DNA of 64,000 nucleotides from Haloarcula salinisoli. GTDB lineage: Archaea > Halobacteriota > Halobacteria > Halobacteriales > Haloarculaceae. The translations under genes were made by a program, and so were the position numbers. Below, in pieces: positions 9,185-12,062 of this stretch (positions within the stretch are counted from its first letter, which is position 1; each line of letters starts with the position of its first letter). A model generated the notes under the pieces. The model was not told the DNA's origin and did not search any database. It saw only the letters and a program-made list of their open reading frames with translations. Location: positions 1 to 64,000 of the forward strand of contig NZ_RKLQ01000005.1 in the NCBI RefSeq assembly GCF_019599405.1, written 5' to 3'.

Positions 9185-9880
9185 TTAGCTCAGTTGGTCA
9201 ACTTGCGATGATAGATACTCTTGTAGTGAACTGACCGTCTCTGCTGAGACAGCTGATGCCCCAAAGTCACTGCGATAACCATGTTTGAGTTCTTCACTCC
9301 CAAGAATCTCTAATCCACGCTCCAATTGCTCCCGTAGAGCATCTTCGTCCCCTCGCCGGAGGTGAGCTGTCACCGAATCGAGTGCAATTTCTTCAGCGAC
9401 CGCCAAGACATCCCGAAGATCTGTTTCACGACCGCTGTGGAGCTTTGCTGCCACGAGAACCGCCCCATCGATAACTCTGGCCGTCGTTGTTACCGTTCCG
9501 CCGCTAACTTCCTGTTGTTGGCTATGGTCGTACAGGTAGTCGAACGACCATTGTGCCTCAGTCTGGCGACAGCCCAGTCCATTTACCAGTAAATCAAAGC
9601 CAATTGGCTGCTGGGGTGTCAGCCGTTTTTCGTACTCGATTACCTCGGTGTCGTAGAACCATTCCTTTGCATGGCTGTCCGTTTTCTCGAAGTCTCGCTG
9701 TTCGAGGAACTCGACGAATTTCGACTTGGAGTCGGGTGCAACGACGATATCGAGATCTGTTGAGAAGCGCGCATTGAACGCTGACACAGCGTAGCCGCCG
9801 ACAAGGACGTATTCAAGGCCTTCTTTGGAGAGTTCATCGAGTAGTTCGATGAGGGCATCACTCCGGTTGTGAAAACTCAT
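9185..9880 (-). CDS. nucleotidyltransferase, AbiEii-like toxin candidate
   Basis: A 231-residue protein with the minimal nucleotidyltransferase signature: Y-V-L-V-G-G-Y-A-V at about 24-32, then T-D-L-D-I-V-V at about 41-47 (the catalytic DxD pair), followed by an Asp in G-F-D-L-L (about 95). AbiEii-type enzymes transfer nucleotides to RNA and inhibit growth or block phage. The upstream partner is an HTH protein whose stop overlaps this start by four bases (9877-9880), as in AbiE type IV toxin-antitoxin operons. An alternative is a non-toxic MNT-type enzyme. The 3' end overlaps the tRNA-like fragment at 9180. Confidence 0.75.
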   Translation of the reverse strand: MSFHNRSDALIELLDELSKEGLEYVLVGGYAVSAFNARFSTDLDIVVAPDSKSKFVEFLEQRDFEKTDSHAKEWFYDTEVIEYEKRLTPQQPIGFDLLVNGLGCRQTEAQWSFDYLYDHSQQQEVSGGTVTTTARVIDGAVLVAAKLHSGRETDLRDVLAVAEEIALDSVTAHLRRGDEDALREQLERGLEILGSEELKHGYRSDFGASAVSAETVSSLQEYLSSQVDQLS

Positions 9881-10551
9881 GGCTGCACCCGCTCCGTCTC
9901 CCGGTAAGTGACACCGAGGTCAAGATCATCATACATCCGGTCGAGCATCGCGAGCGCCGACTGGAACTGGGTATAGTTCTCGTTCATGTATTTGATTGTC
10001 TCTGCCCTCGGAATCACCGGATAGCCTTCGACGTAGTCCATTTCGAGTGACGGTTGTGGGTCGAGGACGATCTGGAGCGGTCCTGTGAGCTCGTCTCGGG
10101 GCCTGCGGTCGAATGTGGTAGGAAGGTCGAACGACTCGAAGAAGGACTCCCAGGCGCCGACGTCTTGCTCACGAACGGCGATGAACAGTGGATAGTCGTC
10201 GGGGTTGCGACCGACTTGATAGCCCCCCTGTGTCCAAACATAGACGGCGTCGATTCGAGCGAATGCGAATGGCCAGTCGCTGAACTGTGGAATTACGTAT
10301 GCCTCCTCGATAGAGGGGGGACTGACGCTCGCGCTGGCTGCAATGAGCTCCCGTGCGGCGCTTCTCACGCGGTCGTCAACGACAGAGAGACCAGCGTCAT
10401 ATCGGACGTACCCTGCGTCTTCGAGACGGTTGACGGCCTGTCTCACCGTCTCGTATGGCGTGTGGAGGGCTTGCGAAACCCGTCGGATAGAGTCACCACT
10501 CTCTATCGCGAGGATGATTTGTGCCGCTGTCTCGTCGAGAGTCTCGTACAT
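9877..10551 (-). CDS. HTH protein, AbiEi-like antitoxin candidate
   Basis: A 224-residue protein. Residues 1-60 are a winged helix (D-S-I-R-R-V-S-Q-A-L, then P-Y-E-T-V-R-Q-A-V-N-R-L-E-D-A-G-Y-V). The C-terminal part is a mixed alpha/beta domain with W-P-F-A-F-A-R-I-D and Y-P-L-F-I-A-V-R-E, suggestive of the AbiEi C-terminal domain. It is coupled by ATGA overlap to the nucleotidyltransferase. The expected role is autorepression of the pair and neutralisation of the enzyme. The start is the ATG at 10551; an AT-rich promoter lies just upstream (around 10570-10600). Confidence 0.7.
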   Translation of the reverse strand: MYETLDETAAQIILAIESGDSIRRVSQALHTPYETVRQAVNRLEDAGYVRYDAGLSVVDDRVRSAARELIAASASVSPPSIEEAYVIPQFSDWPFAFARIDAVYVWTQGGYQVGRNPDDYPLFIAVREQDVGAWESFFESFDLPTTFDRRPRDELTGPLQIVLDPQPSLEMDYVEGYPVIPRAETIKYMNENYTQFQSALAMLDRMYDDLDLGVTYRETERVQP

Positions 10552-10652
10552 CTGGTAGTTACCAATAATTTGGGAACAGTAAAAAGAATTACTATAGTAC
10601 CGATCTACACTCTGACCCTCCTATCTCATTATCCACTTGTCACAGACCTCTA

Positions 10653-10727
10653 TCTGAGAAACTTAGACGGGCATCTTAGGAAGTTATCTAAGAATCTTAG
10701 ACAACTTTCTTAGATACGTTTCTTAGA
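10653..10727. repeat. iteron/dyad array upstream of the ParA gene (candidate centromere or operator)
   Basis: Copies of the heptamer TCTTAGA lie just before the ParA-like gene. Exact copies start at 10695, 10708 and 10721 (13-bp period). A perfect inverted copy (TCTAAGA, 10687) forms with 10695 a 7-1-7 dyad at 10687-10701. A 6/7 copy lies at 10674 (TCTTAGG), and a degenerate dyad with the same geometry lies at 10653-10667 (TCTGAGA/ACTTAGA). The 13-bp spacing, somewhat more than one helical turn, suits cooperative binding by the small partner protein. The site could be a parS-like centromere, an autoregulatory operator, or both. Confidence 0.75.
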
Positions 10728-10788
10728 TGTCAAAGATAGATATGTTGTCTGACGAAGATTCTTATCCAAGAAAGTTGCATACGTGTCT

Positions 10789-11658
10789 ATGCTGAGTTAT
10801 ACCGTGTACTCGGAGGCCGGGGGTGTCGGGAAGACGTCGCTGACTGCAAATCTGGCCGTCGCCCACGCTCGTGCGGGGCTGAAGCCGCTCGTGGTCCCAC
10901 TGGATCCACAAGATGGCGACCTCTCACGACTGCTAGGCGTCGATACGAACCGTGCCGACAGCAGCGCCGACAACCTCGTTCGACACATGGTCAACAGCCC
11001 ACGAGGGCCGTTCGAGGAACTCATTCGAACCGCAGAGGGTGTCGATATCGTCCCGGAACACAACATGCTCTCGGACCTCTCCGACCATCTAGCACGCGAG
11101 CAGTCCAAGGCTGAAGACCTCGGTGATGCGTACAATATCTACGCACAACTCCAGCGGGTTCTTCGAGAAGGCGATGTCGGTGACCACTACGATGTCCTCC
11201 TCTGTGACCCACCGGCCACTGAATCGGATCACCTCTACAACGCTATTTACGCTACGCGGAATCTCGTTATCCCAGTGGAACCATCGTGGAAAGGGCAGGC
11301 CTCCGTTGAGGGGCTGGCAGACCTCGCCACCAACTTCGCTGACCAGCTGAACATCGACGTTGGGGTGCTCGGTGCCATCCCAAATGGCGTCAAGAACACA
11401 TCTGACCAACGAGAGATGCTGGAGGACATCGAGTTCCCAACCCCAGAGATAATCGGTGATCGGACCTCGCTCATGGAGGGGTGCTGGAAACAGCAGTGTT
11501 CAGCGTTCAGGTACGTTCGAGAACATCGGAGTCGGCGGCGAGACTACGAGATCGAGACGCTGGCGCAACTTGATCGTATCGCTCGGTTCCTCGAGGCCGA
11601 GGTCGGTCTCGAAGCACCGAACGCGCCCGAACCAGGGGCACTGGAGGAGCCAGCATGA
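10789..11658 (+). CDS. ParA/MinD-family partition ATPase
   Basis: A 289-residue protein. The deviant Walker A motif is at the N-terminus (S-E-A-G-G-V-G-K-T-S, about 7-16), Walker A' lies near L-D-P-Q-D-G-D, and Walker B lies near V-L-L-C-D-P-P-A. ParA ATPases bind DNA with ATP and position plasmids through a small centromere-binding partner. The ATG at 10789 is preferred because M-L-S-Y-T-V-Y-S is the usual start; a GTG two codons upstream (10783) is possible. The stop overlaps the partner gene (ATGA). The upstream heptamer array is the probable binding site of the complex. Confidence 0.9.
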   Translation: MLSYTVYSEAGGVGKTSLTANLAVAHARAGLKPLVVPLDPQDGDLSRLLGVDTNRADSSADNLVRHMVNSPRGPFEELIRTAEGVDIVPEHNMLSDLSDHLAREQSKAEDLGDAYNIYAQLQRVLREGDVGDHYDVLLCDPPATESDHLYNAIYATRNLVIPVEPSWKGQASVEGLADLATNFADQLNIDVGVLGAIPNGVKNTSDQREMLEDIEFPTPEIIGDRTSLMEGCWKQQCSAFRYVREHRSRRRDYEIETLAQLDRIARFLEAEVGLEAPNAPEPGALEEPA

Positions 11659-12062
11659 CGGGATTCAAGAGCGGAGCAAGTGACGATGATCCGCTCGGTA
11701 GCGGCGACAGCGATACTGAGGCGGATACAACTGGCTCTTCCGACATTACGGAGGCCCAGTCGTCGACTCTTTCATCTGGCAGGTCAGAGCTAGACCGCTC
11801 TCAAGACAAGAGCAGCAGCTCAAGCCCGGAACTGCCGTGGATTTTCGATCGTTCGAGTATTACTGATGGCCGGGAGAAGACTGTCCAGCTCCATCTCCAG
11901 CAATCGACACTCGATACACAGCGTCAGGCGAAATCTGACGTTGAGTCAGCACTCGGAGAGACAGTCAAGAAGGCTGACCTTCGGGAAGCAGCCATCATCG
12001 TTGGACTGCAGCAAGTCGACGACGTCACCGATATCCTCGAAGAGTGGGGCTACGGTCGCTGA
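11655..12062 (+). CDS. small partner of ParA, probable centromere-binding protein
   Basis: A 135-residue protein. Residues 1-60 are a low-complexity Ser/Asp/Glu-rich tail. Residues about 60-130 are more ordered (D-G-R-E-K-T-V-Q-L-H-L, then E-A-A-I-I-V-G-L-Q-Q-V-D-D-V), consistent with a strand plus helices as in RHH-like ParB adaptors. ATGA overlap with the ParA gene gives translational coupling. The DNA-binding role is inferred from position and size; no ParB HTH or CTPase motif is present. Confidence 0.75.
   Translation: MTGFKSGASDDDPLGSGDSDTEADTTGSSDITEAQSSTLSSGRSELDRSQDKSSSSSPELPWIFDRSSITDGREKTVQLHLQQSTLDTQRQAKSDVESALGETVKKADLREAAIIVGLQQVDDVTDILEEWGYGR

Follow-up and report, generated by a model that had tools for sequence, protein, structure and literature searches.

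A palindromic heptamer array as the probable centromere of a haloarchaeal plasmid partition operon

The window analysed here is the first 64 kb of contig NZ_RKLQ01000005.1 (C5) of Haloarcula salinisoli. The contig is 212,318 bp long and 114 bases are identical at its two ends, which indicates a circular plasmid of ~212.2 kb. An array of TCTNAGA-type heptamers lies between a divergently oriented gene and a parA-type gene, and the latter is followed by the gene of a small partner protein (Table 1). On the minus strand (9185-10551), a nucleotidyltransferase-like gene with a weak NTP_transf_5 match stands directly after the divergent gene, and we take the two to resemble a nucleotidyltransferase toxin-antitoxin pair.

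Table 1. Coordinates and basis of the features of the partition locus and of a related array on the same plasmid
Feature	Position	Strand	Basis or remark
Divergent HTH gene	9877-10551	minus	weak HTH match
Degenerate outlying unit TCACAGA, weaker, extending the 13-bp register upstream	10640-10646	none	sequence
Seven-unit TCTNAGA array, putative parS/operator	10653-10727	none	read directly; homologous arrays elsewhere
First 7-1-7 dyad, TCTGAGA-A-ACTTAGA, imperfect	10653-10667	none	sequence
Second 7-1-7 dyad, TCTAAGA-A-TCTTAGA, perfect	10687-10701	none	sequence
GTCTGAC element, 42 bp upstream of the start codon of parA	10747-10753	+	conserved in most loci
Probable TATA-like box TTCTTAT, ~27 bp before the ATG	10759-10765	+	position and column consensus
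parA-type ATPase gene	10789-11658	+	Pfam AAA_31; ATG start, 289 aa
Partner gene (135 aa), overlapping parA by ATGA	11655-12062	+	ORF and alignment of relatives
Second exact three-unit TCTNAGA array, same plasmid, 90 kb away	C5:100420-100452 (L207:16420-16452)		sequence

Read from the sequence, the heptamers start at positions 10653, 10661, 10674, 10687, 10695, 10708 and 10721. Units one to four are TCTGAGA (10653-10659), ACTTAGA (10661-10667), TCTTAGG (10674-10680) and TCTAAGA (10687-10693), and units five to seven are all TCTTAGA (10695-10701, 10708-10714 and 10721-10727). An earlier note, made from the letters alone, had described an exact 13-bp spacing of TCTTAGA repeats and two dyads of 7-1-7 geometry; three exact copies do follow one another at exactly 13 bp, and both dyads are present, the upstream one imperfect and the downstream one perfect, exactly 34 bp apart. 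The true regularity, which that note had not seen, is a 34-bp super-repeat (8+13+13) with 8 and 13 as the sole steps, in the order 8-13-13-8-13-13. TCTNAGA is itself a palindrome, so that "direct" and "inverted" copies are the same site and orientation carries no information. The note had also held the array to be more ordered than the DNA around it, and rightly so: it is the densest 13-bp self-match both in the 64-kb window and in the whole 212-kb contig, and when the upstream region was shuffled by dinucleotides 1000 times, no shuffle reached the counts observed at lag 13 (13 against a shuffle mean of 0.39) or lag 34 (14 against 0.42). The stricter word TCTWAGA occurs six times in the 64 kb, four of them in the array.

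By profile, the product of the parA-type gene is a ParA-superfamily P-loop ATPase (Pfam AAA_31, 62.5 bits with a cut-off of 27; CbiA, 44.7 bits with a cut-off of 25.4; PHROG 164, ParA-like partition protein, E 8.3e-26). Its ATG at 10789 is the start common to the relatives, and an in-frame GTG at 10783, where the frame opens in the ORF list, is an alternative. The P-loop reads SEAGGVGKT and lacks the signature lysine of the deviant Walker A motif (KGGxxK[S/T]). This lysine is absent from all 142 loci compared, namely the window, 80 relatives from a genome collection, one locus from a viral collection and 60 distant loci that we selected from related genomes, leaving out the remaining places. 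Its position holds alanine in 135 loci and serine in seven, and the P-loop starts with SE[AS]GG instead of KGG, AE replacing SE once; two other ParA/MinD-type proteins of the window's own genome retain the lysine. The P-loop begins at about residue 10 in 142/142 loci, so the protein carries no N-terminal HTH extension, and its 289 residues from the ATG are more than the range of ~200-250 given for type Ib in PMC9178275, which also lists McdA as a ParA-family member without the signature lysine. Because this ParA fails the signature-lysine motif by which type I is defined, we call the system like type Ib rather than type Ib. Upstream of the gene, at a nearly constant distance, GTCTGAC with at most one mismatch is found between -75 and +9 in 111 of 141 loci and in most word classes (~10% expected by chance), and the TTCTTAT box is a probable promoter element of the parA operon.

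The partner gene stands directly downstream of parA in every one of the 142 loci, and its product is annotated as a hypothetical protein even on Haloarcula hispanica pHH126 and Halobacterium pNRC200. The protein consists of a conserved N-terminal MTGFKSGA, an acidic, serine-rich linker and a C-terminal domain with a putative strand, TVQLHLQ (residues 76-82), and three helices. Across an alignment of 50 sequences, the N-terminal motif (MTGFKSGA/MTGMKEGAG, with K5 and G7 invariant) and the C-terminal domain are conserved and the linker is variable. The earlier note had called the partner acidic-tailed; the acidic part is instead the N-terminal linker, residues 9-59, in which 13 of 51 residues are D/E, three K/R and 21 S/T (pI of the protein, 4.2). 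In one relative from Halorubrum californiense (L088) the partner frame turns into VSYTHXMCIRDR, presumably a sequencing-adapter or assembly artefact.

Searches with the window partner returned no family from Pfam, PHROGs or PADLOC at E<=0.001 and no match in NCBIfam at E<=1; 50 relatives gave nothing beyond scattered weak matches to Pfam at E<=1, and two partner profiles matched no ribbon-helix-helix chain among the PDB sequences. In an AlphaFold2 model of the C-terminal domain (mean pLDDT 81), three helices follow a low-confidence segment. CopG bound to DNA is the chain that aligns best (Z 3.9, below the safe level; 1.6 A over 42/42 residues), plant TCP domains tie with CopG, and a chain of a MazEF complex reaches Z 3.0. 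Foldseek searches with the partner models gave nothing at E<=0.001; the full-length model, whose N-terminal half is of low confidence, had three matches with E>4, none of them with Z>=2, and fared worse than the C-terminal domain by itself. The strand of a ribbon-helix-helix protein pairs in the dimer only, and DSSP assigned no strand in the monomer models. Aligned by hhalign with four ribbon-helix-helix proteins of its own genome, the partner scored 13.7. Slices of ParA reached at most 13.2 and controls with shuffled columns at most 19.9, and since decoys scored that high the alignment lends the fold no support. The model of the C-terminal domain thus fits a ribbon-helix-helix fold without proving it.

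The array is not peculiar to the C5 plasmid; it belongs to a family-wide lattice in haloarchaea. Lag 13 was counted 1110 times in the first set of loci against ~40 expected, with lags 26 and 39 next, one row without upstream DNA (L082) having added its whole locus to both the observed and the shuffled counts. The 60 distant loci gave counts of 860, 687 and 409 at lags 13, 26 and 39, and ~10-90 at other lags. The strongest upstream lag was 13, 26 or 39 in 126 of the 141 loci with enough DNA, and among arrays of the TVQLHLQ type the spacings permitted are essentially 13, 8, 9 and sums thereof. The repeated word, on the other hand, changes by clade: TCTNAGA, TGTTCA(tt), TTTCAAAC, TATAGCTATAC, AGTCTAAC, CAGTAATACTG, TCTGTAACAG, TAGTAAC and others. 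The geometry of the lattice is fixed across the haloarchaeal loci and its letters are not. The window's own genome holds three par loci on three contigs with three words, TCTNAGA on C5, TATAGCTATA on C7 and a CTGTAACAG-like word on C6. On a 53.5-kb "viral" contig of IMG/VR (L145), a TCTNAGA array accompanies a par locus of the TVQLHLQ type, and the contig may for that reason be a plasmid or a plasmid-like virus.

The word keeps company with the putative strand of the partner. With strand classes assigned by hand, 37 of the 39 TVQLHLQ loci have TCTNAGA pairs at 13 bp upstream of parA, compared with two of the 103 loci of other types; when one mismatch per unit is allowed, the 13-bp pair is present in all 38 testable TVQLHLQ loci and the 8-bp dyad in 14. 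Whole genomes give the same picture (50 loci chosen, L132 left out; 48 genomes covered): of the genomes with the TVQLHLQ strand, 20 of 25 contain an array of three TCTNAGA units, as against 0 of 23 without it, and an array of three TGTTCA units is present in 15 of the 20 VPLFL genomes, two of the 25 TVQLHLQ genomes and none of three others. Among 145 related genomes, eight have a TCTNAGA array, all of them with a close ParA, and every array place in these eight but one is immediately upstream of that ParA; in G025, a ninth genome where a close ParA is present, the array is weaker.

Word and strand also vary together among diverged loci. In a comparison of the 137 of 142 loci with enough repeats (five were dropped), pairs with 60-70% ParA identity had a mean word cosine of 0.446 when they shared a strand (80 pairs) and 0.004 when they did not (1787 pairs), and at 70-80% identity the contrast was weaker, 0.453 (536 pairs) versus 0.216 (119 pairs); because these pairs and loci are related, the counts are not independent. 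At 60-72% ParA identity, words are best separated by partner positions Q78, T76, A107 and H80, in that order among the 76 ranked, while the interleaved V77, L79 and L81 rank 48, 44 and 64. T76, Q78 and H80 are alternate residues of one putative beta-strand, an alternation that agrees with the pattern expected of a DNA-reading ribbon. After removal of the TVQLHLQ class, strand positions still rank high, though less cleanly (K75 1, Q82 5, Q78 6, T76 16 and H80 31 of 76).

Shared ancestry explains much of this co-variation, because the strand classes come close to being clades in the tree of ParA, where 16 classes require 15 changes, the minimum possible. Nor is the code between strand and word one-to-one: TATAG-like words are common to the RP[IV]FLR, QPMFLQ and VP[YF]FLR strand types, pairs whose strands differ go on sharing words when their ParA identity is 70-80%, and in one case the partner downstream of a TGTTCA array has a TTIELN strand. 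Two TVQLHLQ genomes have a TGTTCA array; in one it lies upstream of another ParA/partner pair (TTIELN), and in the other it forms a 13-bp tandem repeat, the 1.2 kb retrieved there showing neither a ParA nor a partner ORF. At L215:488-622, in a genome that has a TVQLHLQ-type par locus, TTCATTCG units form a 13-bp tandem repeat, and the 1.2 kb retrieved contains no par genes.

We think it probable that the array serves a haloarchaeal plasmid partition operon as its parS centromere, most likely as its operator too, and that it is bound by the partner. The array geometry, the family-wide 13-bp step and the co-occurrence and co-variation of word and partner strand were obtained directly. Their bearing on the earlier note's proposal, that the partner binds here at a centromere or operator, is favourable: the near-restriction of TCTNAGA to TVQLHLQ loci and the change of word with the strand residues support it by comparison. 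The best reading, by analogy, is that the locus works like bacterial type Ib systems with ribbon-helix-helix proteins. We infer that the partner would adopt that fold and that its dimers, one per heptamer, would bind the palindromic TCTNAGA sites through a two-stranded beta-ribbon, with T76, Q78 and H80 of each strand reading the bases. Adjoining dimers 13 bp apart, or sometimes 8 or 9, could then build a regular nucleoprotein filament, from which the N-terminal MTGFKSGA, on its flexible acidic linker, would contact and stimulate the ParA-type ATPase; the copies of the plasmid would thereby be drawn apart across the nucleoid, one to each daughter cell. A word cognate to its partner would let different plasmids reside in one cell without cross-reaction. 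Repression of the operon may be a further role, and autoregulation is likely because most arrays end shortly upstream of the promoter block with the conserved GTCTGAC.

That same arrangement could be read to mean that the array is an operator only, autoregulating the parA operon while segregation uses another site or none. It is true that ~20 bp separate the end of the array from the conserved promoter block downstream, and in close relatives the units keep a fixed register to the ATG (-68, -81 and -94). However, an exact three-unit array occurs 90 kb off on the same plasmid, where about one in a million is expected by base composition; by ORF reading, it lies ~235 bp upstream of an RHH/PIN toxin-antitoxin-like pair and just downstream of a winged-helix-like gene. 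Five of 39 loci, moreover, have TCTNAGA pairs beyond the partner gene, 1.3-1.6 kb from where parA starts, and at least six units over 75-400 bp would seem to exceed what a simple operator needs. Because some arrays thus sit away from any parA promoter, a centromere is favoured, and we regard the pure operator as unlikely. TCTNAGA arrays were also seen on other contigs of three haloarchaeal genomes (L217:798-817, L218:899-918 and L219:881-913); the 1.7-1.8 kb retrieved around them contain neither a ParA nor a partner, and the arrays are possible secondary centromeres.

Iteron arrays are typical of plasmid origins, and in some circular plasmid records parA is found in the first kilobase, as might be expected if the repeats were replication-origin iterons bound by an initiator. 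We hold this to be very improbable, given that the plasmid's Orc1/Cdc6 gene (162702-163844) is ~60 kb from the array round the circle and that the word tracks the ParA partner across genomes. Less credible still, to the point of being nearly negligible, is that the product of the divergent gene, rather than the partner, binds the array. The array does lie between the two divergent genes, one of which has the HTH match, but the word follows partner type across many genera, and pHH126 and pNRC200 have par loci with an array next to other annotated neighbours.

A ParA with a small DNA-binding partner and a repeated parS is known as a kind of system. What appears to be new, judged from the sequences, are the interchangeable words on a fixed 13-bp lattice, together with a partner that is unclassified and a ParA that lacks the signature lysine. 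No publication describing the array, the partner or the partition locus was found in the open-licence literature, a coverage outside which most subscription papers fall. On balance we lean, by a modest margin, towards an undescribed haloarchaeal partition class, defined by a lysine-less ParA (invariant E, then A/S), an unclassified partner, a centromere of fixed lattice and free letters, and about a dozen strand-word specificity types. Haloarchaeal genomes carry many large replicons. If the proposal is true, the specificity types could be read from sequence as incompatibility groups, a few strand residues would predict the DNA word across haloarchaea, and cells could keep at least three such plasmids together, as the window's genome appears to do. 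It would then be possible to test directly, in genetically tractable haloarchaea such as Haloferax and Haloarcula, how recognition is made specific, which plasmids are compatible and what part the signature lysine plays, and the loci would provide a basis for stable vectors.

Among known systems, TP228 ParF/ParG/parH has its site upstream of the operon, as do the haloarchaeal loci, and the spacing of its parH repeats differs from the 13-bp step. This type Ib system, named in PMC9178275, has a small ParA and a ribbon-helix-helix partner with a disordered N-terminus, which the haloarchaeal partner may resemble; the haloarchaeal ParA is longer (289 aa) and without the signature lysine, and the repeat word differs. 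McdA of carboxysome positioning (PMC9178275) is likewise a ParA-superfamily ATPase without the signature lysine, whose motif begins SGG; its cargo and partner are different, and the missing lysine is the common trait.

The delta/omega system of pSM19035, also type Ib with a ribbon-helix-helix partner, shares with the haloarchaeal loci a ParA without HTH, a small partner and arrays of 7-bp sites that overlap promoters, several per plasmid (PMC9499535). One omega dimer binds each heptad (PMC9499535), as would be expected for the haloarchaeal array. In the omega system (PMC9499535), however, the heptads are contiguous and non-palindromic (WATCACW) and gaps between them abolish full ParA activation, whereas the haloarchaeal heptamers are palindromic with 6 bp between them at the 13-bp step; the haloarchaeal arrays do not consist of contiguous 7-bp sites of the omega type, their steps being 13, 8 or 9 bp. 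Omega is moreover a ribbon-helix-helix protein, while the haloarchaeal partner profiles, as stated above, matched no such chain among the PDB sequences. SegAB of Thermoproteota and Euryarchaeota, as presented in PMC12284271, likewise has an archaeal ParA-type gene overlapping a small partner gene, there for a ribbon-helix-helix protein, with a palindromic site near the operon and elsewhere, and the SegB consensus TCTAGA-S-TCTAGA resembles the perfect dyad of the window. SegAB sites are chromosomal, mostly scattered and in many cases inside genes, and share one broadly conserved word (PMC12284271), whereas the haloarchaeal sites form an array at a plasmid operon and use a dozen.
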